NCBI GenBank assembly: GCA_905181625.1
Contig: CAJIYJ010000003.1
Location: 370,001 to 434,000, forward strand
Direction: 5' to 3'
DNA: 64,000 bases
DNA from: an uncultured Flavobacteriaceae bacterium
GTDB taxonomy: Bacteria; Bacteroidota; Bacteroidia; Flavobacteriales; Flavobacteriaceae
Shown piece by piece: positions 24,101 through 50,889 of this stretch; position 1 is the stretch's first letter; every line of letters begins with the position of its first letter. Under the pieces are notes generated by a model, which was not told where the DNA came from, made no database searches, and saw only the letters and a program-made list of their open reading frames with translations. The translations under genes were made by a program, and so were the position numbers.

Positions 24101-27100
24101 ACGGTTTCCACAGCTATTGCTTGTTTTGGTGACAACGAAACAATAAAAGTTAATGTTACCCAGGGTTCCACTGCTCCATATATTTATTCAATCAGTGGAA
24201 GTGCTACTGAAACTTCTGATGCTACAACAGCTACAACTTATTCATTTTCTGTTCCAGTAGGCACCTATACTGTTAAAGTAACTGATGCTAACGGGTGTGA
24301 AAAATCATTGGATCCTATAACTTTAACTCAGTCCGCTGCAGCTTTAGCTGTTAGTGGTGTTGTTAAACCATACATTGGAGGTTTTCAAGTTAGTTGTAAT
24401 GGAGCAAGTGATGGAGAAATAGATACCACTGTTACAGGTGGAACGATAGGATCAGGTTACACTTATGCTTGGTCTGTTACAGTTGGTGGTACTGATATTA
24501 GTGCATCAACATCAGCTGATCAATTAGATTTAAAAGCTGGAACTTATACGGTTGTTGTTACAGATGCTAATGGATGTACGCAAACGGATAGTTATACACT
24601 TACTGAGCCTGATGTTTTAGCTGTTAGTGGTGTTGTTAAACAATACATTGGTGGTATTCAAGTTAGTTGTAATGGGGCAAATGATGGAGAAATAGATACC
24701 ACTGTTGCAGGTGGAGCTACTGATTACACTTATGCTTGGTCTGTTACAGGTGGTGGTACTGATATTAGTGCATCAACATCAGCTGATCAATTAGATTTAA
24801 AAGCTGGAACTTATACGGTTGTTGTTACAGATGCTAATGGATGTACGGAAACGGATAGTTATACAATCACAGAGCCTTCTGAATTACTTATTGCAGATGC
24901 CACGGTTTCCACAGCTATTGCTTGTTTTGGTGACAACGAAACAATAAAAGTTAATGTTACCCAGGGTTCCACTGCTCCATATATTTATTCAATCAGTGGA
25001 AGTGCTACTGAAACTTCTGATGCTACAACAGCTACAACTTATTCATTTTCTGTTCCAGTAGGCACCTATACTGTTAAAGTAACTGATGCTAACGGGTGTG
25101 AAAAATCATTGGATCCTATAACTTTAACTCAGTCCGCTGCAGCTTTAGCTGTTAGTGGTGTTGTTAAACCATACATTGGAGGTTTTCAAGTTAGTTGTAA
25201 TGGAGCAAGTGATGGAGAAATAGATACCACTGTTACAGGTGGAACGATAGGATCAGGTTACACTTATGCTTGGTCTGTTACAGTTGGTGGTACTGATATT
25301 AGTGCATCAACATCAGCTGATCAATTAGATTTAAAAGCTGGAACTTATACGGTTGTTGTTACAGATGCTAATGGATGTACGCAAACGGATAGTTATACAC
25401 TTACTGAGCCTGATGTTTTAGCTGTTAGTGGTGTTGTTAAACAATACATTGGTGGTATTCAAGTTAGTTGTAATGGGGCAAATGATGGAGAAATAGATAC
25501 CACTGTTGCAGGTGGAGCTACTGATTACACTTATGCTTGGTCTGTTACAGGTGGTGGTACTGATATTAGTGCATCAACATCAGCTGATCAATTAGATTTA
25601 AAAGCTGGAACTTATACGGTTGTTGTTACAGATGCTAATGGATGTACGGAAACGGATAGTTACACACTTACTCAGCCTGATGCTTTAAGTTTAGATTCGT
25701 CACAAGTTGATTTTAATGGATTCAACGTTAGTTGTTTTGGAGCTCTTAATGGAGAAATTGATTTAACAGTTACAGGTGGAACTCCTGTTTACACTTATGA
25801 ATGGTCATCTTCAGATGGTACAGGCTATGATCCAACTTCTCAAGATCAAACCGACTTATCAAGTGGAACATATATTGTTAAAGTGACCGATTCAAATAAT
25901 TGTGAGATAAGTGGAACATTTGTAGTTGCAGAGCCTCCGCCATTAGTTTTAACAGCAACTTTATCCGATTTTAATGGATTTAATATTAGTTGTAATGCAG
26001 GAAATGATGGAATAATTGATATTACCTCAACTGGTGGGCTTTTAGTTACTGGCGATAATTACACTTACGCTTGGACTCAGTCTAATGGAGGAAGTGGAGT
26101 TGATGCTTCATCTGAAGATCAAACAGGTCTAACAGTAGGAACTTATACGGTACTAATTACTGATTCAAATGATTGTACTATTACAAAATCATATCAAATT
26201 GTCGAACCTGATTTAATAGGTTTTACAGGAGTTAAGTCTGATTATAATGGTTATGGAATTAGTACTGCAGGAAATAATAATGGGACAATAACAATTACTT
26301 CAAGTGGTGGAAGTGGAGGAAATACGTACGATTGGTCAACAGATGATGGTAGTGGTATAGTTGTTGGTGATCAAAACCAAAACACATTAACTGCAGGAAC
26401 TTACATTTTAAAAATAACTGATTCTAACGGCTGTAATATTACAAAGTCCTTTACATTAACGGAACCCGCTGAATTACTTATTTCATTAGGTACGGACCCA
26501 ACAAACATTTTATGTTATGGAGATTCTACAGGATTAATAAAAGCTATTATTACTCAAGCAGCTGTTCCACCCTATACTTTTACTTTAAATGGTGAAAATT
26601 ACTTGGGTGAAATAGTTTTTGAATCTTTTTCAAATATTACTGATTTGAATTACACTTTTAATGTTAAAGCTGGAGAATATAGCATTACTGTAACAGATTT
26701 AAATGGTTCTACTAAAACAACCAATACTAGAGTTTATACTCAACCTGATGCTCCTCTATCTATTTCTGAAACTATTTCAGTTTTTAATGATTATAATATT
26801 AGTTGTACAGGAGCTTTAGATGGCGCAATTGACATTACGGTTAGTGGCGGAACTTTAACAGGTACTAATTATACTTATTCTTGGACTTCTTCTGTTGGCA
26901 GCTCTGATCTTACTGGAACACGAACAGCAGAAGATCAAACAGGTTTAGGTACTGGAGAATATACTGTTATAGTTACAGATGAGGGTGACTGTACTATAAC
27001 TAAATCTTTCGTGCTTACTGAGCCTGAAAAAATAGTTTATTCTTTAAATAATAAAACAGATATAACCTGTTTTGGAGATAATGATGGTTCCATTGAAATA

Positions 27101-31677: not shown

Positions 31678-32466
31678 TTATATTTTTTCTTTATCCTTTT
31701 TAAATGGTGAAGCATTCATGTGTTCTATTATTGAGTTTTTTGCTACAAAAAAAGCTATTAAAAGCGTAACTAATCCGCCTATCCAAATTCCAGGAACAAA
31801 GTCTAAAAACAGAAAATAATCATAAAATGCATGAAAGAGAATTGGGACAATTAATGATAATAGAATATTAAAAAATTTAAATTTTTCATTTGTTTTAGCT
31901 TTTCCTAAATAATAACCCATGATTACTGCAAACACAAAATGTGCAGGTACTGCTGAAAACATTCTAAGTACAGCTAAAGAAGCATTTCCTTGAAGAACAA
32001 AAGTTAAATTTTCTGCAGTAGCGAATCCCATTCCAACAAATACAGAATAAACAATGCCGTCATATGGTTCGTCAAAGTTTTTGTTTGGATATAATATAAG
32101 AATTACAACAAGAAATTTCAATACTTCTTCTGTAATTGAGACTGTAAGTGCTTCTCCACCAATGTTTAGAAAATCATTTTCTATATTAATAAATTGTAGA
32201 AAATATTCGAGTAAATCAACGTCTAAATGCAGGTTTATTGCTCCAAAAATAAATGCAATAGCAAGTAGCCATAAGGGTTCTTTGTCATATTCATCTAGGT
32301 TATAAATTACTGCCATGATGAAAATCCCAGGGCATATAGATAAAGCAACTAACATTAAATCTTTTAATTCAAATATGTTGATTAAAACTAAAGGATAGAA
32401 TAAAACGACATATAATGCTGTCACAATTATTCCAGTCATTAAGCTAGTTTTAAAAATTCTATTCAT
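31678..32466 (-). CDS. PrsW-family intramembrane metalloprotease
   Basis: The 262-residue protein has about seven to eight membrane segments. Motifs of the PrsW/CPBP-related clan are present: EYDKEPLW near residue 59, the catalytic TEEVLKFL (EExxK) near 113, GFATAEN near 152, a histidine in 'AVPAHFVFAVIMGYYLGKA' near 176, and HAFYDYFLF near 216. In Bacillus, PrsW cleaves an anti-sigma factor; the substrate here is unknown. Its start lies 6 bp from the end of the upstream metallopeptidase gene (32473), so the two are likely one transcript. It converges with the cadherin-like gene, with only 3 bp between the stop codons. Confidence 0.87.
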   Translation of the reverse strand: MNRIFKTSLMTGIIVTALYVVLFYPLVLINIFELKDLMLVALSICPGIFIMAVIYNLDEYDKEPLWLLAIAFIFGAINLHLDVDLLEYFLQFINIENDFLNIGGEALTVSITEEVLKFLVVILILYPNKNFDEPYDGIVYSVFVGMGFATAENLTFVLQGNASLAVLRMFSAVPAHFVFAVIMGYYLGKAKTNEKFKFFNILLSLIVPILFHAFYDYFLFLDFVPGIWIGGLVTLLIAFFVAKNSIIEHMNASPFKKDKEKI

Positions 32467-35590: not shown

Positions 35591-35625
35591 AAAAAAAAAG
35601 AGGAGAAAATTTATTTTCTCCTCTT
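35591..35625 (-). terminator. Strong intrinsic terminator after the 18-residue repeat gene
   Basis: A perfect 13-bp inverted repeat (35598-35610 and 35613-35625, AAGAGGAGAAAAT and its complement) lies 28 bp past the stop codon at 35654. Read on the minus strand it is followed by an unbroken run of T (complement of the A-run at 35591-35599). This is a textbook Rho-independent terminator for the minus-strand gene and separates it from the peptidase gene at 35565. Confidence 0.85.
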
Positions 35626-35653: not shown

Positions 35654-37096
35654 CTAAAATTCCACACCACTCATCATTTTTTGAAATTCTGGTAATGCAA
35701 GCATTTGAAGTGCATTTGGTTGTGCTAACATTTCAAAACCTCCAGGCATAGCAGCAAATTCTACTAATGCAGGAGAAGATAAAAATTCTAATCCTCCAGG
35801 CATTGCAGCAAATTCAAATAATGCAGGAGAAGACAAAAATTCAAAAGCTCCAGGCATTGCAGCAAATTCAAATAATGCAGGAGTAGACAAAAATTCAAAA
35901 GCTCCAGGCATTGCAGCAAATTCTACTAATGTAGGAGAAGATAAAAATTCTAAAGCTCCAGGCATTGTAGCAAATTCAAATAATGCAGGAGAAGCTAAAA
36001 ATTCAAAAGCTCCAGGCATAGCAGCAAATTCTACTAATGCAGGAGAAGATAAAAATTCTAATCCTCCAGGCATTGCAGCAAATTCAAATAATGCAGGAGA
36101 AGACAAAAATTCAAAAGCTCCAGGCATTGCAGCAAATTCAAATAATGCAGGAGAAGCTAAAAATTCAAAAGCTCCAGGCATTGCAGCAAATTCAAATAAT
36201 GCAGGAGAAGATAAAAATTCTAATCCTCCAGGCATAGCAGCAAATTGTGCTAATTCAGGTGAAGCTAACATTTGAAGTGTTGCAGGATCACCAGCAGCTA
36301 ATTTTTCCATAGCTCCAGGCATTGCAGCAAATTCTACTAATGCAGGAGAAGCTAACATTTCCATAGCTCCAGATATTTTAGCAAATTTTGAAAATTCAGT
36401 AGAAGCTAAAAATTCAAAAGCTCCAGGCTTTGCAGCAAATTGTGCTAACTGAGGAGAGCTTAATTTAGCAAGTCCTCCAGACATTTTAGCAAATTTAGCT
36501 AATGAAGGAGTGGCTAACATATCCATAGCTCGGGGCATTTTAGCAAATTTTGCTAATTCAGGAGATGCTAACATTTCTAAGCCTTTTGTCATTTTAGCAA
36601 ATTTTGAAAGTGAAGAAGTACCTAGCTTTTCAAAAGCTCCAGGCATAGCAGCAAATTGTGCTAATTCAGGAGAAGCTAACATTTCCATAGCTCCAGATAT
36701 TTCAGCAAATTTTGAAAATTCAGTAGAAGCTAAAAATTCAAAAGCCCCAGGCATAGCAGCAAATTGTGCTAATTCAGGTGAAGCTAACATTTGAAGTGTT
36801 GCAGGATCACTTGCAATTTTTGCAAATACTGGATCTGCGATCATCTTTGTAAAATCTTGATTATTAAGGAAATCTTGGATTTCCTCTCCTTCAAGAGTAA
36901 CTACGACATCTTTTCTGTTGTCGTACTTTTCGGCTTTTTTAACGCCTTTAATTGCTTTATTCCCTGAGCTTGTTAAATCTGAAGGATTAAAGTCGATAGT
37001 TCCTGATTGTACTAGCACGAATACTACTCCTACTATTACAACCGCCGCGATTAAGAAATTTAATTTACCGTGGACTTTGTTCGTGTGTTTACTCAT
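35654..37096 (-). CDS. Membrane-anchored protein made of about twenty 18-residue proline-punctuated repeats (unknown function)
   Basis: I do not recognise this 480-residue protein. Residues about 12-29 (FLIAAVVIVGVVFVLVQ) form one uncleaved membrane anchor after a short basic N-terminus, so the rest is probably periplasmic. After a charged linker ('KKAEKYDNRKDVVVTLEGEE') the remainder, from about residue 98 to 460, is a tandem array with an 18-residue unit such as GAFEFLASPALFEFAAMP. Each unit splits into two 9-residue halves that both end in proline (..EFLASP and ..EFAAMP). Sequence is divergent near the N-terminus (LAKFAKMP, EMLASPEL) and nearly identical over the last ten units. The C-terminus 'EFQKMMSGVEF' closes the array. 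The pattern suggests short amphipathic helices, loosely recalling STI1-type motifs, but that comparison is a guess. A strong terminator follows. Confidence 0.85.
   Translation of the reverse strand: MSKHTNKVHGKLNFLIAAVVIVGVVFVLVQSGTIDFNPSDLTSSGNKAIKGVKKAEKYDNRKDVVVTLEGEEIQDFLNNQDFTKMIADPVFAKIASDPATLQMLASPELAQFAAMPGAFEFLASTEFSKFAEISGAMEMLASPELAQFAAMPGAFEKLGTSSLSKFAKMTKGLEMLASPELAKFAKMPRAMDMLATPSLAKFAKMSGGLAKLSSPQLAQFAAKPGAFEFLASTEFSKFAKISGAMEMLASPALVEFAAMPGAMEKLAAGDPATLQMLASPELAQFAAMPGGLEFLSSPALFEFAAMPGAFEFLASPALFEFAAMPGAFEFLSSPALFEFAAMPGGLEFLSSPALVEFAAMPGAFEFLASPALFEFATMPGALEFLSSPTLVEFAAMPGAFEFLSTPALFEFAAMPGAFEFLSSPALFEFAAMPGGLEFLSSPALVEFAAMPGGFEMLAQPNALQMLALPEFQKMMSGVEF
35727..36300 (-). repeat. 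Near-identical 54-bp tandem repeats inside the 18-residue-repeat gene
   Basis: About ten 54-bp units, one per 18 residues, follow each other with only a few base changes (GAA/GAT/GAC, TCA/TCT, AAT/ACT variants). Upstream units (36300-36800) keep the period but have diverged in sequence. The gradient suggests ongoing expansion or gene-conversion-like homogenisation at the 3' end of the array. Confidence 0.88.
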
Positions 37097-37123
37097 AATT
37101 ATTAGTTTTAATTATTTCCCAAA

Positions 37124-37139
37124 CAACTTAAACAAGTTG
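37124..37139. promoter_or_regulatory. Small inverted repeat upstream of the repeat-protein gene
   Basis: CAACTT-AAAC-AAGTTG, 27 bp upstream of the start at 37096, is a 6-bp perfect dyad in the 171-bp gap between kynureninase and the repeat gene. The gap also holds CTAAC/GTTAG arms at 37147-37163. Either could be an operator or a leader hairpin; no known consensus is matched. Confidence 0.25.
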
Positions 37140-37267
37140 TATAATTCTAACCACTATAGTTAGTGCATCTAATATAGGGAATTTTACCATAGCAGTAATT
37201 ACCTAGTTAGAAACAAGAGGTTTGTGATTGATAAGATTGTGATTGTGATTTTTAGTTGGAACTTCCT

Positions 37268-38555: not shown

Positions 38556-39668
38556 TTATTGTTTTAACTCACTCTTTATACTTTCTGACAATTCAACAAA
38601 CACAGCTTGTTGCTCTTTTGTTAAGCCGTCGGCAGTAAATATAGAAATTCCTTTTGCTCCGTTCTTTCTAGAAATTAAAATAGCTTTTTTTAAATCTTCA
38701 GGATTTCTCAATGCTCCTGAGTAAAGTCCTGAAATCACAGGAAAATCTACATCATTAACTCCTTGTTTTGTAGCAAAACCAATCCAGTTTATGTTTTCTC
38801 TATAAAAATTTTGATATAACATAGGGTAGGCTTGATCTAAATCCCAATCGTCCCATGCCTGTCTTACCATTTGTCTTGACATTTCAGGAAAAGGGAATAC
38901 AGCTGCTGTAACTTTTTTGTTTTTAGAATGGGCAATTGCAATAATTTCATTTACAAGAGTGGTAACAGCATTTAATCTAAACTGTCGCCATTCAGTTGAT
39001 AGCTCTGGATTTTCAAAATCTTGTGGATCTTTATTAAAAATTCTTTTAAACTCTTTTCTAGCTAAAGGATGGTAGCCATAGTCATACTCAGGCATTTCAG
39101 TTTTTTGAACAATATTGTATTTTGGTTGTAAGTCAGCCCCTAAAATAACATCAGGAAATCTAACATAATCTAAATGTACAGAAGCTAATCCTTTGACTTC
39201 CATTAGTTTTTTTGCATTATTTATAATGTGATTTCTAGCTTCTGGATGAAAAGGGCTTAGCCACTGGTAATAATCTACATAAGCTCTATAATCCAAAGAG
39301 TTGTCTCCATTTCTATTAACAGCATACCAGTCTGCGTTTTTGTTAGCAATTGTATCTCCAGGACGATTTAAAGTCCACATCCAACCATGAACTTTTATAT
39401 TTTTTTTATCAGCTATTGGGATGATTTTTTTTAAAACTTCAGGAGATCCACTAACCAGAATTTCACTGATTCCTAAAGAGTCGTAGTAGCTTATTTTTTT
39501 TTGCCAATTTTTTTCATTAAAATTGTTTCCTGCACCAGTCCATGTGCTAAAAGTGAAATCAGAATCAGCAGTATTGTTAATTAAATCAATATTGTTTTCT
39601 TTTTTAAAATCACAGTTAATAAATAAAAAACTAAAAATAATTACAAATAAATATCTTTTCATACTCAA
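38556..39668 (-). CDS. GHL10/DUF4015-like putative glycosidase lipoprotein
   Basis: The 370-residue protein has a lipoprotein leader (IFSFLFINC). The body is a predicted TIM barrel with 'KKNIKVHGWMWTLNRPGD', 'ADWYAVNRNGD', and the HLDYVRFPD motif near residue 170, which is the conserved signature of the GHL10 (DUF187) and DUF4015 families. Further on come 'KKVTAAVFPFPE', 'DDWDLDQAYPMLYQNFY' and 'GISIFTADGL'. These families are thought to be carbohydrate-active, but substrates are unknown. It is divergent from the EEP hydrolase at 39690, with 21 bp between the starts, so the promoters must overlap. Confidence 0.82.
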   Translation of the reverse strand: MSMKRYLFVIIFSFLFINCDFKKENNIDLINNTADSDFTFSTWTGAGNNFNEKNWQKKISYYDSLGISEILVSGSPEVLKKIIPIADKKNIKVHGWMWTLNRPGDTIANKNADWYAVNRNGDNSLDYRAYVDYYQWLSPFHPEARNHIINNAKKLMEVKGLASVHLDYVRFPDVILGADLQPKYNIVQKTEMPEYDYGYHPLARKEFKRIFNKDPQDFENPELSTEWRQFRLNAVTTLVNEIIAIAHSKNKKVTAAVFPFPEMSRQMVRQAWDDWDLDQAYPMLYQNFYRENINWIGFATKQGVNDVDFPVISGLYSGALRNPEDLKKAILISRKNGAKGISIFTADGLTKEQQAVFVELSESIKSELKQ

Positions 39669-39689
39669 TAAATATATTAAATTTAAACC

Positions 39690-40508
39690 ATGAATAATAT
39701 ATTATATATATTTCTATTTTTATTATATAACACCCAAGATCTTAAAGTCATTTCTTATAATATTCGTTACAACAATCCCAATGATGGGGTAAATATTTGG
39801 GACAATAGAAAATCAACTGTTACGGAATTCATTTCTAATGAAGAGGCAGATTTTGTTGGAATGCAAGAGGTCTTAAATTCTCAATTAACAGACTTGATGG
39901 GTTCTTTAATAGAGTATGATTATGTAGGAGTGGGTAGAGATGATGGAAAAAATAAAGGAGAGTATAGCCCAATTTTATTTGATAAAAATAAATATAAAGT
40001 TTTAAGATCAAACACCTTTTGGTTATCCGAAACACCAAATAAAATTTCCGTAGGGTGGGATGCTTCAATGGAAAGAATTTGTACTTATGGACTTTTTGAA
40101 AATAGAAATTCAAGTAAAAAAATATGGGTATTTAACACACATTTTGATCATGTTGGTGTTTTAGCTAGAGAAAAATCTATTGAATTAATTATTGACAAAA
40201 TAAATGAGCTTAATAAAATGAATTTTCCAGTACTTTTAACAGGAGACTTTAATTTGGGAGATGAAAATAAGTCAATAACAAAACTTCAAAATGAATTTAT
40301 AGATTCTAAAAAAGATATATTAAAAAGTAATGAATTTTATGGAACCTATAATGGCTTTAATAACGTTAAGTCTGATAAAAGAATTGATTATGTATTTTTT
40401 AGAAATTTAACTTTAATCAATTCTAAGCATGTTTATTTAAAAACCAAAGCTAACAACTGGGGGTCAGACCACCATCCAGTAGTTGCTTCTTTAAAACATA
40501 TAAATTAA
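39690..40508 (+). CDS. Endonuclease/exonuclease/phosphatase (EEP) family hydrolase
   Basis: The 272-residue protein has the EEP-fold motifs in order: VISYNIRY with the metal-linked Asn near residue 24, the metal-binding Glu in FVGMQEVL, WDASMERICTY, the catalytic His in FNTHFDHVG, the LTGDFNLGD Asp/Asn pair, KRIDYVF and the terminal SDHHPV. Family members cleave phosphodiester or phosphomonoester bonds in DNA, sphingolipids or inositol lipids. The short hydrophobic N-terminus (ILYIFLFLLY) could be an export signal. Neighbours are lipoproteins and carbohydrate-active proteins, which favours an extracytoplasmic role. Confidence 0.87.
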   Translation: MNNILYIFLFLLYNTQDLKVISYNIRYNNPNDGVNIWDNRKSTVTEFISNEEADFVGMQEVLNSQLTDLMGSLIEYDYVGVGRDDGKNKGEYSPILFDKNKYKVLRSNTFWLSETPNKISVGWDASMERICTYGLFENRNSSKKIWVFNTHFDHVGVLAREKSIELIIDKINELNKMNFPVLLTGDFNLGDENKSITKLQNEFIDSKKDILKSNEFYGTYNGFNNVKSDKRIDYVFFRNLTLINSKHVYLKTKANNWGSDHHPVVASLKHIN

Positions 40509-40509
40509 A

Positions 40510-41514
40510 ATGAACAAAAAATTATTTTTAATTCTGCTGATATTCCTTGTTTCTTGTTCAAAAGAGACCATTGAAGTTGAAGTTATCCAGAACAAATCAA
40601 GTGCTAAAATCGTAGGTTATTTACCGACTTGGAGGTTTGAATTGAGTAGTAAAGTTGAATATTGTAAACTCACTCACTTAAACCTTGCCTTTGCAAATCC
40701 AGATTCTAGCGGAAGTTTAATTATGCCAGATATATCGGGTGTAGTGTCAGATGCAAAATCTAAAAATCCTAATATAAAAATATCCATTTCAATTGGTGGT
40801 GGCTCTTTAAGTACTCAGCAGGCTAGCAATTGGTCTAACTTAATTGATAATTCCCAAAACAGGTCTAAGGTTGTTTCAAAAATCGTTGATTATGTTTTGT
40901 TAAATAATTTAGATGGAGTTGATGTGGATTTAGAATGGAATTATGTTACCAGTGGTTACAGTGCTTTTGTAGTTGACTTAAACAACGCTTTAGATCAACA
41001 CTCAAAAATGATTACTGCAGCATTCCCAGCCACTACTCGTTATTCTAACTTGTCGGATAACGCTTTAAGTGCCTTTGATTTTATTAACATTATGAGTTAT
41101 GATTTTACAGGGCCTTGGGACCCTAATAATGTAGGTCAGCATAGTTCATATAATCATGCAAATCAATCAATTAATTTTTGGAAAAATTCAGTTGGCGTAT
41201 CATCTGAAAAGCTTGTTTTAGGCGTTCCTTTTTACGGATATGATTTTAGCGATGTAACAAATGTAACTTCATTCACTTTTTCTAGTATGGTAGGTCTTAA
41301 AAGCTCTAACGCAGATATAGACAATGTGGGTTTTAAGTATTATAACGGAAGACCAACAATTCGATCAAAAGTACAATTAGCAAGCACTGAAGTTGGTGGA
41401 ATTATGATATGGGAAATTGGACAGGACTCTTTTAACGATTATTCCCTACTTAAAACTGTTCACAAAGAATTTGATAAATTAGGGTTTAAAACTACTGAAC
41501 TTTGTAAAGAATAA
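40510..41514 (+). CDS. GH18 chitinase-like lipoprotein
   Basis: The 334-residue protein has a lipoprotein leader (LILLIFLVSCS). The GH18 barrel begins 'IVGYLPTWRF' and contains KISISIGGGS and the catalytic DxxDxDxE motif as DGVDVDLEW at residues about 134-142, with the acid/base Glu in place. It continues with 'FINIMSYDFTGPWDP', 'LVLGVPFYGYDF' and 'GGIMIWEIGQDS'. The family hydrolyses chitin or other N-acetylglucosamine-containing glycans. With its lipid anchor it probably acts at the cell surface or in the periplasm. It lies 1 bp after the EEP gene, so both are on one transcript. Confidence 0.9.
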   Translation: MNKKLFLILLIFLVSCSKETIEVEVIQNKSSAKIVGYLPTWRFELSSKVEYCKLTHLNLAFANPDSSGSLIMPDISGVVSDAKSKNPNIKISISIGGGSLSTQQASNWSNLIDNSQNRSKVVSKIVDYVLLNNLDGVDVDLEWNYVTSGYSAFVVDLNNALDQHSKMITAAFPATTRYSNLSDNALSAFDFINIMSYDFTGPWDPNNVGQHSSYNHANQSINFWKNSVGVSSEKLVLGVPFYGYDFSDVTNVTSFTFSSMVGLKSSNADIDNVGFKYYNGRPTIRSKVQLASTEVGGIMIWEIGQDSFNDYSLLKTVHKEFDKLGFKTTELCKE

Positions 41515-41529
41515 TTTATTTTTATAATC

Positions 41530-43080
41530 ATGAAAAAACTACTTACATTATTTATATTGATTTTTTTAATTTCCTCTTGTGAAAAAGACTCCGTTGTTTA
41601 TATGTTGACTACTTCAGTTAGTCCAGCTGACACAGGGGTGGTAATTCCTTCAACAAGACAGTATAATATTGATGATACCGCTAAACTAATAGCTGTTCCA
41701 GCCGAGAACTATGTTTTTGACAAATGGACTGGGGCTGAGGGTGGAGCTGAAACTACTATAATAATGGATTCTGATAAAACAGTAGTGGCAAACTTTGCTA
41801 AGATTCAATATGAGTTAACAGTTACAGTTGAAGGTCAAGGTACTGTTACAGAAAAAGTGATTAAGGAAGGTGTAATTACAAAATACAATAGCGGATCAGT
41901 TATAGAACTTGAGGCAAAGCCATCATCTGGATGGATTTTTGTACAATGGAAAGGAGACTTATTAGGAGTTGATAATCCTAAAAATATTACTATTGATAAA
42001 GCTAAAAGTGTTGTAGCTGTATTTCAAAAAAACCAATATGCTTTAACTATTGTTAAAGATGGTCAAGGTACGGTTACACCTGCTGCAGGTGATTATAATA
42101 AAGGAAGCGTATTGAGCTTAACAGCTACTGCTGCTTCTGGTTGGGAATTTGAAAAGTGGTCCGGTGTTTTGTCAGGAACAGACAGTCCTACAAATCTTAC
42201 TTTAAACTCGGATGCAACTGTAATTGCTATTTTTAAATCATTAGCGCCAATAGTATTAGATGCTAATGGTGTCACTTTAAAAGCAAGACCAGGAGTTGTT
42301 GCTGGAACAACTCATGAATTTTTTGGAGTAACCTTTACTGTTGTAGATAATACGATGCTAAATGAATGGATTAGCGCAGATAAAGATCTTTCTAAAGCAG
42401 TCACTTCACTTGTAACAGACATGAAAGAATTGTTTAAAGGCAATACTACTTTTAATACTACTATTTCAAGTTGGGATGTAGGTAGTGTAACAACAATGGA
42501 AGGAATGTTTGAAGGAGCATCATCTTTTAATAAAGACATTAGTAATTGGGAAACTAATAATGTAAAAAACATGAATAAAATGTTTGACGGTGCCGCTACT
42601 TATAATCAAGATATGTCAAATTGGTGCGTTACCAACCTAAGTACTGAGCCTACAAATTTTGCTAGAAATTCTGGAGCTGATAATGATGATAAGCCGATTT
42701 GGGGAACCTGGCCAGGAAGTCCAATGATTGGAGTTTGGGAGATGATTAGTCACAAATGGGAAGAGCCTGAAAAAGAAGATAGTAGACCTTGTATAAATGA
42801 AGGGTATCCTAATGTTCTTACTATTAAATCTGGGGAGAACTATGGAACTTATAACATGGTAGATTACGAGTGTTATGATAATGGCAATGCTATGGAAGGT
42901 CCTAATTCACAAGATGGGACTTGGCTTTACAATGCAGATGCATCCAATTATCAATATAAAGTAGACGGAGTAGAGTATGACGTAGAGCTAAGTAATAATA
43001 ACAATAATTTTAGTGTAAAGATGCCACCTATAGAGCAAGATGAATCAGGATCGATAGAAGTATGGAAAAGGAAAGAATAG
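41530..43080 (+). CDS. Lipoprotein with three InlB-type B-repeats and BspA/DUF285 repeats
   Basis: The 516-residue protein opens with a lipoprotein leader (FLISSC). Residues about 25-236 hold three divergent InlB B-repeat domains, each with 'YALTIVKDGQGTVTP' and 'GWEFEKWSG' signatures. Residues about 270-370 carry DUF285/BspA-type repeats (MKELFKGNTTFNTTISSWDV, 'MEGMFEGASSFNKDISNWE'). The final 120 residues (WEMISHKWEEPEKED...) look like a lipocalin-type beta domain seen in many flavobacterial lipoproteins. It is probably a surface binding or adhesion protein. It follows the GH18 gene by 15 bp and may help bind its glycan. Confidence 0.85.
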   Translation: MKKLLTLFILIFLISSCEKDSVVYMLTTSVSPADTGVVIPSTRQYNIDDTAKLIAVPAENYVFDKWTGAEGGAETTIIMDSDKTVVANFAKIQYELTVTVEGQGTVTEKVIKEGVITKYNSGSVIELEAKPSSGWIFVQWKGDLLGVDNPKNITIDKAKSVVAVFQKNQYALTIVKDGQGTVTPAAGDYNKGSVLSLTATAASGWEFEKWSGVLSGTDSPTNLTLNSDATVIAIFKSLAPIVLDANGVTLKARPGVVAGTTHEFFGVTFTVVDNTMLNEWISADKDLSKAVTSLVTDMKELFKGNTTFNTTISSWDVGSVTTMEGMFEGASSFNKDISNWETNNVKNMNKMFDGAATYNQDMSNWCVTNLSTEPTNFARNSGADNDDKPIWGTWPGSPMIGVWEMISHKWEEPEKEDSRPCINEGYPNVLTIKSGENYGTYNMVDYECYDNGNAMEGPNSQDGTWLYNADASNYQYKVDGVEYDVELSNNNNNFSVKMPPIEQDESGSIEVWKRKE

Positions 43081-47997: not shown

Positions 47998-50889
47998 TAT
48001 GTTCGAAGCACCAGAAACATTTGCTGTCCAAGCAAGCGTTCCACTTCCATCTGTTTTTAAAACTTGATCAGCAGATCCATCTGCTGCAGGAAGAACCCAT
48101 ATTTTATCTGCTGCTAAAGCTGGTGCTTCAAATCCTACATAATTTGATCCTTCGTAAAATCTCAACTCTTGGTTACTTCCTCCAACGGATAAATCTCCAA
48201 TAATTGTTGTAGCTCCTGTTACAGAAGAAGCCCCCGTTACATTTAAAGCCCCCGTTAAAGTAGTAGCCCCTGTTACATTTAAAGCTCCTGATAAAGTACT
48301 AGCTCCTGTTACGCCTAAAGTTCCAGACGTTCCTATATTTCCAGTTACACTTAAAGCCCCTGCTAAAGTAGAATTCCCAGCTACCTCTAAGGTCCCAGCC
48401 GCTCCAATATTTCCAGATGCTGCTAATACTGTAAACTTATTGGTGTTGATTGCTAAGTCCGACGATACAGCTACTTTTCCTGTTCCATTTGGACTTAATC
48501 TAATGTCTCCATTTGAGCCATTAACAATTGTAATGTCACCTGAGGTTGCATTTCCTGTTCTTATAGTCAAGTCATGATCTCCTTTGGATTCAACCTTTCC
48601 AACTCCACTACCATCACCAACTTCAATTCCATCTCCACCTGGATTTATAGCTACCGTATTGTCAATCCATCCTAAAGTTCCGCTTCCATCTGTTTTTAGT
48701 ATTTGATTCGCAGCTCCATCAGCTGGCGGAAAAGTTAAATTGTCTAATACTACTTTCCCTGTTCCATTTGGACTAATATTGATATTTCCATCCGCTCCAT
48801 CAATAATGGTAATGGTTCCTGTGGTCCCGTTTCCTGTTTTAATAACAATGTCTGTATCTCCAACAGATTGGATAACCCCTGAACTTACAGATGTAAATAC
48901 TCCAGTCGAGGCAGTGCTTGCTCCAATTGAAGTTCCATCAATAGCGCCGCCATCAATATTAACCGCATCATTATCTTGAGTCACTATAGTTCCTGCGCCC
49001 AGAGCTGTTCTTGCTGCTGCAGCATCTGCTGCGGTAACTAATCCTATCATTGGAGCAGTAGCTGAACCTGTTCCACCAAGGGAAATAGGAACCGTGCCTG
49101 CTGTAATCGCTTGTCCACTTATTGCTAAGTAATTATCGGTAACGGTTGCTAAGGTGACTGCTGTAGAACCGTCTGTTCCAGAAGCATCCACGCCTAGAGC
49201 CGTTCTTGCTGCTGCGGCATCTGCTGCGGTAACTAATCCTATCATTGGAGCAGTAGTTGAACCTGTTCCACCAAGGGAAATAGGAACCGTGCCTGCTGTA
49301 ATCGCTTGTCCACTTATTGCTAAGTAATTATCGGTAACGGTTGCTAAGGTGACTGCTGTAGAACCGTCTGTTCCAGAAGCATCCACGCCTAGAGCCGTTC
49401 TTGCTGCTGCGGCATCTGCTGCGGTAACTAATCCTATCATTGGAGCAGTAGTTGAACCTGTTCCACCAAGGGAAATAGGAACCGTGCCTGCTGTAATCGC
49501 TTGTCCACTTATTGCTAAGTAATTATCGGTAACGGTTGCTAAGGTGACTGCTGTAGAACCGTCTGTTCCAGAAGCATCCACGCCCAGAGCATTTCTTGCT
49601 GCTGCTGCGTTTTCTGCGGTAACTAATCCTATCATTGGAGCAGTAGTTGAACCTGTTCCACCAAGAGAAATAGGAACCGTGCCTGCTGTAATTGTCTGCT
49701 CACTTATTGCTAAGTAATTATCGGTAACAGTTGCTAAGGTGACTGCTGTAGAACCGTCTGCTTCATCAGCCCACGAAAGTGTTCCACTGCCATTTGTTTT
49801 TAGCACCTGATTAGAGTTTCCAAAGGAGTTAGGGAATTTTAAATTATCTATCACTACTTGTCCTGTGCCATCTGGTGAAATGTTTATATTTCCATTAGCA
49901 CCATTAGCTATGGTGATGTTTCCTGTGACTGCACTCCCTGTTTTTAAGGTAAGGTCTGTATTGTCGTTAGATTGATAAATAGCTGAAGATACTATGGTAA
50001 AAGCTCCTGTGCTTTTTAAAGTCCCTCCAACAGGTGTTCCATCAATAGATCCCCCGTCAATATTTACAGCCGTATTATTTTGAGTGGCTATGGTTCCTGC
50101 GCCAAGGGCAGTTCTTGCGGCGGCGGCGTTGGATGCAGTGATTACACCAATCATTGGAGTTGAATTAACTCCAGTTCCACCTAGTGAAATAGGAACTATG
50201 CCTGCTGTAATTTTTTGGCCATCTATAGTTAAGTAATTTCCTGTAACGGTTGTTAATGTGACGGGAGTTGAGTTGTCTTCATCTGATGAAGACTCAACCC
50301 CTAATATTTCCCGAGCTCCAGCAGCATCTGCTGCTTTAATAAGGCTAATCATAGGTGCTGTATTCACGCCCGTTCCCCCTGAATTAACCGGAAGAACCCC
50401 ATTAGTGTTCGTTGATAAATTTATTTTTTTAAGCCTAAGCTCATTGTTTGAATAAGTCAGGTAATTTTCTCCACTTAAAAGCAAATTAGTATTTGAACTC
50501 CCTGCATACAAAGCGTATGGAACACTTAGTAACTGTGAAGTGCTTTGAATTAAATAATTACTTCCACCAAGAGGATCTACTTCAATTCTTAAAAAATATT
50601 CGCCTGTAGACCAGTCAATAGCTGAAAAATTATCCGAAGTTGTCCCATCACCAATTGATAAAGAAATCATTCCATTAGAATTAGTTTCTGTAGAATGTCG
50701 CTCTCTATAAACAGTTTTACCAATGTTTGAGTTTTGTAAAATACTAAATCGAATGCCAATGTTGGCGGACTTTAAAACATTTCCGTCTGAGCTTCTAACA
50801 ACAGACTGATAAGTGAACTTTTGTGGGGTTTGTGAAGACAAACTCACACAAAAAAATATGAATAATAAATGAAGGAAATGTTTTTTCAT
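47998..50889 (-). CDS. N-terminal fragment of the giant YadA-head-like adhesin (frameshifted gene)
   Basis: I place the start at the ATG at 50889, which begins a clear signal peptide (KKHFLHLLFIFFCVSLSSQ), rather than the upstream ATG at 50907. Residues about 20-135 are the domain common at the head of Bacteroidota fibre proteins (FTYQSVVRSSDGNVLKSANI ... 'STSQLLSVPYALYA'). Then come repeats with 'PISLGGTGSTTAPMIGLVTA' and 'ARTALGVDASGTDGSTAVTL', including nearly identical 65-residue copies, followed by 'GNITIANGANGNINISPDGTG' beta-repeats and short 'GASTLSGALNVTG' repeats. The overall design resembles a phage-tail-like or trimeric surface fibre. The frame breaks at 47997. Confidence 0.82.
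49030..49760 (-). repeat. Near-identical 195-bp tandem repeats (almost four copies) in the adhesin gene
   Basis: Units beginning at 49030, 49225, 49420 and 49615 are spaced by exactly 195 bp (65 codons) and differ by only a few bases, the fourth diverging near its end. They encode the LGGTGSTTAPMIG/ALGVDASGTDG unit. Copy number is likely to vary between strains. Confidence 0.88.

Follow-up and report, generated by a model that had tools for sequence, protein, structure and literature searches.

A membrane-anchored repeat array encoded with a protease-like protein and PrsW: a possible periplasmic arm of an envelope relay

Introduction

The window, that is the whole 64,000-nucleotide stretch analysed here, encodes on its reverse strand a 480-residue protein in which one N-terminal hydrophobic segment is followed by an array of GAFEFLASPALFEFAAMP-type units. 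What does such a repeat protein do, and does it act alone? An earlier note had taken it for a lone gene of no named family, with a possible role as a helical solenoid, a lipid- or surfactant-like layer, or a scaffold in the periplasm.

Results

Architecture of the array protein

The array counts about 22 units of 18 residues, or 44 of 9 (Table 1), in agreement with the earlier reading of a single N-terminal membrane segment followed by about twenty 18-residue units, each made up of two 9-residue halves. Self-identity of the protein peaks at lags 36, 18, and 54 (0.58, 0.56, and 0.51, respectively), and since the value at the best lag, 0.58, compares with at most 0.17 in 200 shuffles, the repeat is not due to chance. 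In the DNA, TRF delineates 9.5 copies of a 54-bp unit at 35732–36246 (90% match) and, at 36296–36792, an array of 54/108 bp that has diverged (71–76% match). The near-identity in DNA noted earlier for the last ten units is borne out by the TRF match and by their divergence at silent (pS) and replacement (pN) sites (Table 1), and these units appear to be young and recently amplified. The pN/pS ratios in the window, 0.74 for the 18-mers and 0.98 for the 9-mers, indicate weak constraint. Two other strong tandem repeats, 267 bp × 5 and 195 bp × 3.9 at 96%, lie in the window at 24341–25687 and 48996–49760.

Table 1. Features of the array locus in the window, in order of position.
Feature	Coordinates	Strand	Description or evidence
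PrsW-family intramembrane protease	31678..32466	(-)	PF13367 E=2.9e-33, above cut-off
MA protein, 1030 aa	32473..35565	(-)	signal peptide, peptidase-like domain with HExxH, beta-propeller-like middle, long beta strands at the C-terminus
Terminator-like hairpin, 12 pairs + T-run	35598..35625	(-)	between array and MA genes
Array protein CDS	35654..37096	(-)	480 aa, ATG start; exact ORF confirmed
9/18-residue repeat array, residues ~98-474	35675..36805	(-)	TRF, self-identity, AlphaFold
Ten near-identical C-terminal 18-residue units	35690..36229	(-)	pS 0.19, pN 0.14
Conserved post-membrane region with GNKAIKGVKKAEKYDNR and VVVTLEGEE	36806..36994	(-)	alignment with distant families
Single membrane segment, residues ~12-31	37004..37063	(-)	sequence; AlphaFold helix 6-30, low confidence
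Basic N-terminal tail MSKHTNKVHGK	37064..37096	(-)	11 residues
Conserved leader, GTTGTTTGGGAAATAATT-like block	37097..37141	(-)	directly 5' of start codon; read by eye

In the AlphaFold model, helices of 5 and 7 residues recur about every nine residues, with a block-mean pLDDT of 80–87 over residues 351–470 and an overall value of 62.8; the underlying alignment has nine rows, and the first 106 residues lie mostly below a pLDDT of 50. The array is thus modelled as a probable helical solenoid, one of the structures that had been suggested for it. Searches of the model against the PDB with Foldseek and VIA gave no convincing fold, and a PDB sequence search returned low-complexity matches only (9e5c, 6.6e-9; coagulation factor V, 2.3). 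The protein has no match in NCBIfam up to E=10, and its best Pfam match, STI1-HOP_DP, stays below the cut-off (E=0.016; 15.5 bits versus 29.1), so that the absence of a named family holds and the loose likeness to STI1 motifs is a weak one; nor did searches of open-licence PMC papers list one that names such an array. A strong 9-residue hydropathy phase is present in all ten arrays tested (6.1–8.3, versus a shuffled 95th percentile of 2.3–4.4), and the detailed pattern seen in the window unit is like that of other 9-mer arrays above chance (p<0.05) in only 9 of 42 cases.

Judging by its positive charges, the N-terminal tail is presumed to be cytoplasmic; the apparent invariance of its MSKHTNKV peptide is biased, as the peptide was one of two search patterns, and L176 and L177 differ there. 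The post-membrane region, whose profile retrieved the family, aligns with GTIGG..KAxRYRxxQ..DV.L of distant families. Upstream of the start codon, the leader (37097–37141) contains a small inverted repeat and TTGTTTGGGAAATAATT, and is kept in the genus and partly in L051–L053.

The array gene opens a conserved cluster

The array is not a lone gene: in the window it is the first member of a conserved one-strand cluster, array–MA–PrsW. Its stop codon is separated from the MA start by 88 nt, and the terminator that had been proposed for the gene is visible in this gap as a terminator-like hairpin; folding the array–MA gap of 12 other loci of the window's class gave a similar hairpin with a T-run every time. 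The window MA carries HEMVH at residues 117–121. It matches Peptidase_MA_2 (E=0.018, 15.3 bits against a cut-off of 32.4) and the TolB propeller (E=0.021) below their cut-offs. The HExxH motif is present in 71 of 71 MA ORFs, and a second glutamate motif, defined by two loose patterns, follows it after 48–51 residues in 59 of them. In the AlphaFold model of MA (mean pLDDT 46.8), the propeller region alone is moderately confident; the secondary structure of this low-confidence model makes the C-terminus a probable outer-membrane barrel. The window PrsW matches NF033739 (E=5.8e-42) with 143.7 bits, below the equivalog cut-off of 225; in relatives, two further PrsW genes and two sigma genes were confirmed by Pfam.

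Sigma, MA, and PrsW genes were called by phmmer or hmmsearch at E 1e-6 in loci of which 51 were retrieved, besides nine from named matches and the window, with 68 distinct loci counted in all; near-copies occur among them (e.g. L142, L143, L144, and L155), so that the numbers below count loci and may score one event more than once, and many of the genomes sampled are incomplete MAGs. MA, a protein of ~1000 residues, is the next gene downstream in 53 of the 54 array-found loci with at least 300 nt of downstream sequence, a count that leaves out ten loci (L244–L247, L249, L252–L256) recruited via MA, in which adjacency holds by construction. Of all 68, 64 have at least 300 nt of such sequence, and in 63 of these the array is immediately followed by MA. 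Within the window's class, the one locus that extends far enough and lacks MA is L179 (G979 C15, 1199–2359), a second array copy in one genome, beside PrsW. The count of 68 excludes L156, L157, and L159, which duplicate L053, L052, and L051 and are kept among the 71 MA ORFs, as well as L248, L250, L251, L257, and L258; G854, G1004, and G008, which are contig-end fragments or short matches, are outside the gene-order count.

A search with MA gave 23 matches, 7 of them in known array loci and 16 new. Four of the new ones (G523, G615, G473, and G449) end too near MA for the upstream gene to be read; in the other 12 (L251 and L252 are cut and L250 is partly N), this gene has a repeat in nine and the post-membrane motif without a clear repeat in three.

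PrsW is present in 49 of the 56 loci with at least 3.6 kb of downstream sequence: 13/13 in the window's class, 36/37 in the sigma-bearing groups, and 0/6 in the most distant relatives, a clade with 16-residue units. Downstream of PrsW, L051 (11363–11776), L052 (11281–11631), and L053 (11309–11707) encode a small secreted-looking protein of VFVVDYKSQADLKIFFV-like repeats. In the window, beyond kynureninase, positions 38556–43080 encode a GHL10-like glycosidase, an endonuclease/exonuclease/phosphatase-family protein, a GH18 chitinase-like protein, and a DUF285/InlB-repeat protein.

A phylum-wide family with exchanged repeat units

Of 22 genomes of the window's genus, 8 have a match to the array, counting the window's own, as do both of the two that are at least 90% complete. 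Two of the matches in the seven further genomes are cut by contig ends, and internal stops, the sign of a disrupted frame in relatives that the earlier note had asked about, are absent from every match listed. The named matches are MAGs such as BACL29, MED-G65, and NAT161, with MED-G19, AG-435-C06, and PW7 more distant. Among 395 genomes of the order sample, a search with the window protein found only the window's own genome. Across the phylum, a profile of ten N-terminal regions matched 7 of 395 genomes, own included; searches centred on the profile matches gave 16/92, 28/98, and 8/194 genomes. These matches place the array in a phylum-wide gene family with conserved gene order. In a FastTree of 62 MA proteins, the window's genus clusters with a family (L051–L053, L176–L177) from another order, and this grouping, together with the absence of the array from the sampled genomes of the window's order, makes horizontal transfer seem likely.

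Between the window and five congeners, the first 100 residues of the array protein are 62–80% identical and MA 68–73%, whereas the array units are 16–19% identical, a figure without a shuffled baseline; the units of the five congeners are 53–67% identical among themselves. From this difference we infer that the array of the window genome has been rewritten.

Across the family, 43 of the 67 testable loci have units with a period of 9, 18, or 27 residues, and others one of 6, 8, 12, 13, 16, 25, 26, 44, or 45, sometimes weakly; three MA neighbors keep the post-membrane motif without a clear repeat. Array length is mostly ~180–430 residues. On the MA tree, in which 58 proteins have a period label and two long branches are flagged, the label changes 10 times, the minimum possible being 8 and the shuffled mean 22.3. 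Fewer than ten of these changes are firm because several labels are weak (L181, 0.15 versus 0.14 shuffled; L185, 0.19; L175, L182, L183, and L184, 0.20–0.22). The unit type appears to track descent and yet to have been exchanged inside one gene order. The clade with 16-residue units encodes secreted-looking proteins, not membrane-anchored ones, with a KADRYR-type motif and units such as SQLEELGARYGFTRSS.

Comparison of the units within single arrays (uncorrected pS) suggests that unit sequence is under purifying selection in five of eight arrays: L160 (pS 0.81, pN 0.13, pN/pS 0.16), L145 (0.89, 0.24, 0.27), L050 (0.65, 0.17, 0.26), L158 (0.82, 0.32, 0.40), and L048 (0.36, 0.15, 0.41). L180 is less constrained (0.60, 0.35, 0.59), and the units of L254 are almost uniform (pS 0.01, pN 0), too alike to judge selection. 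As the silent sites are far diverged and the protein units alike, the units seem in most arrays measured to be selected, not merely freshly copied.

Sigma and anti-sigma genes accompany most relatives

In the sigma-bearing groups, an ECF sigma gene lies upstream in all 46 loci with at least 600 nt of upstream sequence. The first set of loci includes 43 with a sigma gene close by: in 26 of them the array protein carries an N-terminal anti-sigma domain of ~100 residues as a fusion, and in 17 a separate anti-sigma gene (~250 residues) precedes it. Fused and separate forms are homologs (hhalign E=1e-26), and their alternation is an argument for joint action of array and anti-sigma. When 19 separate anti-sigmas were combined into a profile, it matched RsiW in the PDB (5wuq_C, E=2.9e-9; next best 0.29); two NCBIfam anti-sigma models match 13 and 10 of these 19, while Pfam gives single weak matches only. 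One glycine column is invariant in all 19 aligned members, and a G[TSA][ILM] motif follows the membrane segment of 17 by eye, the strict pattern being found in 5 of the 17. SigW is the best NCBIfam equivalog for the L160 sigma (9.6e-34) and the second for the L145 sigma (1.3e-33), both under the cut-off.

The window locus has neither a sigma nor an anti-sigma gene nearby, and no sigma gene was found near the array in any of the 15 loci of its class, window included; the 11-residue tail is too short for an anti-sigma domain. Three ECF sigma genes, 25–35% identical to the query, are found elsewhere in the window genome, and around one of them (L259) phmmer found neither an anti-sigma nor an MA gene. 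The clade with 16-residue units likewise has no upstream sigma gene (0/5 loci). In L249, L250, L254, L255, and L256 of this clade, a Ser/Thr-kinase/TPR-like protein, a sigma-54-type regulator, and/or a GAF histidine-kinase-like gene, assigned by reading the sequences, take the place of an ECF sigma factor beside the array and MA; the same sensor may here feed a different output.

Discussion

The fusion to an anti-sigma domain, with PrsW nearby, makes the array a likely periplasmic arm of a proteolytic relay; that this relay is a SigW/RsiW/PrsW-like envelope system, to which the array would link an outer-membrane protease, is in our judgement an evenly balanced proposition. In such a scheme, the array would lie in the periplasm and consist of very short helices stacked on one another. 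Its KAxRYR-type motif, which together with MA is the most widely kept element and for this reason is proposed as the MA contact, would dock on, or be cut by, MA in the outer membrane. An outer-membrane disturbance would then lead to clipping or release of the array, after which cleavage by PrsW close to the inner membrane would follow; in proteins that carry an anti-sigma domain, this would set the sigma factor free. According to a passage of PMC3498285, PrsW cuts RsiW in B. subtilis as site-1 protease. As sigma and anti-sigma are missing from the window locus, array, MA, and PrsW would there most likely still join the inner to the outer membrane and provide a PrsW substrate, the output being a different one. 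A bolder version, which we offer tentatively and hold to be rather doubtful, is that the array is a consumable 'fuse': the MA protease would recognise the array's species-specific units one by one, and the cuts would inform PrsW and, in most of the lineages seen, an anti-sigma factor about the state of the outer membrane. The units would then be selected within a genome but replaced wholesale (e.g. 6, 9, 12, or 16 residues) between lineages, through array–reader coevolution or exploitation by predators or toxins.

Other readings were weighed against the relay. The array could be a pure tether or ruler that merely spans the periplasm and keeps MA near the inner membrane, uncut and with its sequence irrelevant; the swapping of repeat type while the neighbors stay and the usual length of ~180–430 residues would suit such a role, as would the tether-like disordered region that a part of PMC13088901 describes for Dma factors. 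We consider it unlikely in view of the purifying selection on units in five of eight arrays, the HExxH retained in every MA ORF read, and the arrays without an anchor in the 16-mer clade. Those arrays look secreted and have no PrsW nearby (0/6 loci), so that neither a tether nor PrsW cleavage can be general. They are also what an exported repeat polymer would predict, with MA as secretion barrel and processing protease and the array as a secreted or surface product; MA adjoins the array nearly always, and near-identical repeats occur in L254. The other groups retain the membrane segment, and in 26 loci the array is fused to an anti-sigma domain that is presumably cytoplasmic, which leaves this reading with a low probability.

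An STI1/ubiquilin-like chaperone, whose short amphipathic helices would form a groove for unfolded or membrane-bound periplasmic clients, would account for the helix pattern of the AlphaFold model, and STI1-HOP_DP is above its cut-off in two of six relatives scanned (L145, 44.7 bits; L160, 33.5), as is UBQLN1 in L145 (30.2) and L158 (31.3). These matches cover 20–28 residues of the 55-position profile, the window protein is below the cut-off, and the unrelated Plasmodium_HRP, Ribos_L4_asso_C, and Med31 are also above theirs among the six proteins, which makes the STI1 matches look like repeat or composition matches; arrays with 6-, 12-, and 16-residue units are, by eye, without the pattern. 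We regard this chaperone role as quite improbable. The strong hydropathy phase in each of the ten arrays tested would fit a free-standing scaffold or a lipid- or surfactant-like layer unrelated to the neighbors, yet the linkage to MA, PrsW, and, elsewhere, sigma and anti-sigma renders it very improbable. Of the roles proposed earlier, the periplasmic scaffold thus survives in modified form, as a scaffold or tether linked to its neighbors and not as a free-standing one, while nothing was seen in favor of the layer. Finally, the gene might not be expressed or the repeat might be decaying, the family being known from genome sequence only, mostly metagenomes; the intact frame in the listed matches, the conserved core and hairpin, and the selection on units in relatives make this scarcely credible.

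With the relay as the preferred reading, an unexplained repeat protein becomes the component that varies in an envelope system found throughout the phylum, in which most groups seen carry sigma, anti-sigma, array, protease/barrel protein, and PrsW in fixed order. It also poses an evolutionary puzzle: the position of the gene is fixed and the unit is exchanged between lineages, yet the protein is near-constant within several arrays even as their silent sites drift apart.

As to known repeat structures, the array as modelled would have an alpha solenoid of repeated helices in common with BurrH/TAL effectors and designed helical repeats; TM-scores to BurrH/TAL are 0.13–0.19 (Foldseek E 1.3e-4 at TM 0.13, with a mixed-confidence model), and the best VIA Z, 6.7 for a designed fibre, is of a size that repeats commonly reach according to the tool. 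TAL units have about 34 residues, and the window unit has 9. The STI1/HOP DP domain (PF17830) has similar short helices and Pro-punctuated hydrophobic motifs; it differs in that the window protein has a 9-residue unit in dozens of copies, and the best window stretch covers positions 3–25 of the 55 in the profile, less than half of the domain and below the cut-off.

Like SigW–RsiW–PrsW of Bacillus subtilis, relatives outside the window's class encode an ECF sigma, an RsiW-like anti-sigma, and PrsW together, and the window locus retains PrsW. Unlike that system, the array loci add a repeat array and a protease/propeller/probable-barrel protein, and the window locus is without sigma and anti-sigma. 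The Dma anti-sigma factors of Bacteroides combine, in the passages of PMC13088901 that describe them, an anti-sigma domain, a membrane helix, a long disordered tether, and a barrel in one protein, and a passage of PMC9308784 reports a protein like them. They resemble the array system in that an anti-sigma domain, a membrane helix, a long periplasmic region, and an outer-membrane barrel form one signalling unit (same passages of PMC13088901). Here, in contrast, the probable barrel is a separate gene with protease and propeller, in the window and the relatives read, the periplasmic region is a repeat array and not a disordered tether, and the window has no adjacent sigma; of a Dma factor, an adjacent ECF21 sigma would be expected. 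The array system points to an equivalent of these Bacteroides factors, one that may convey the state of the outer membrane to transcription.
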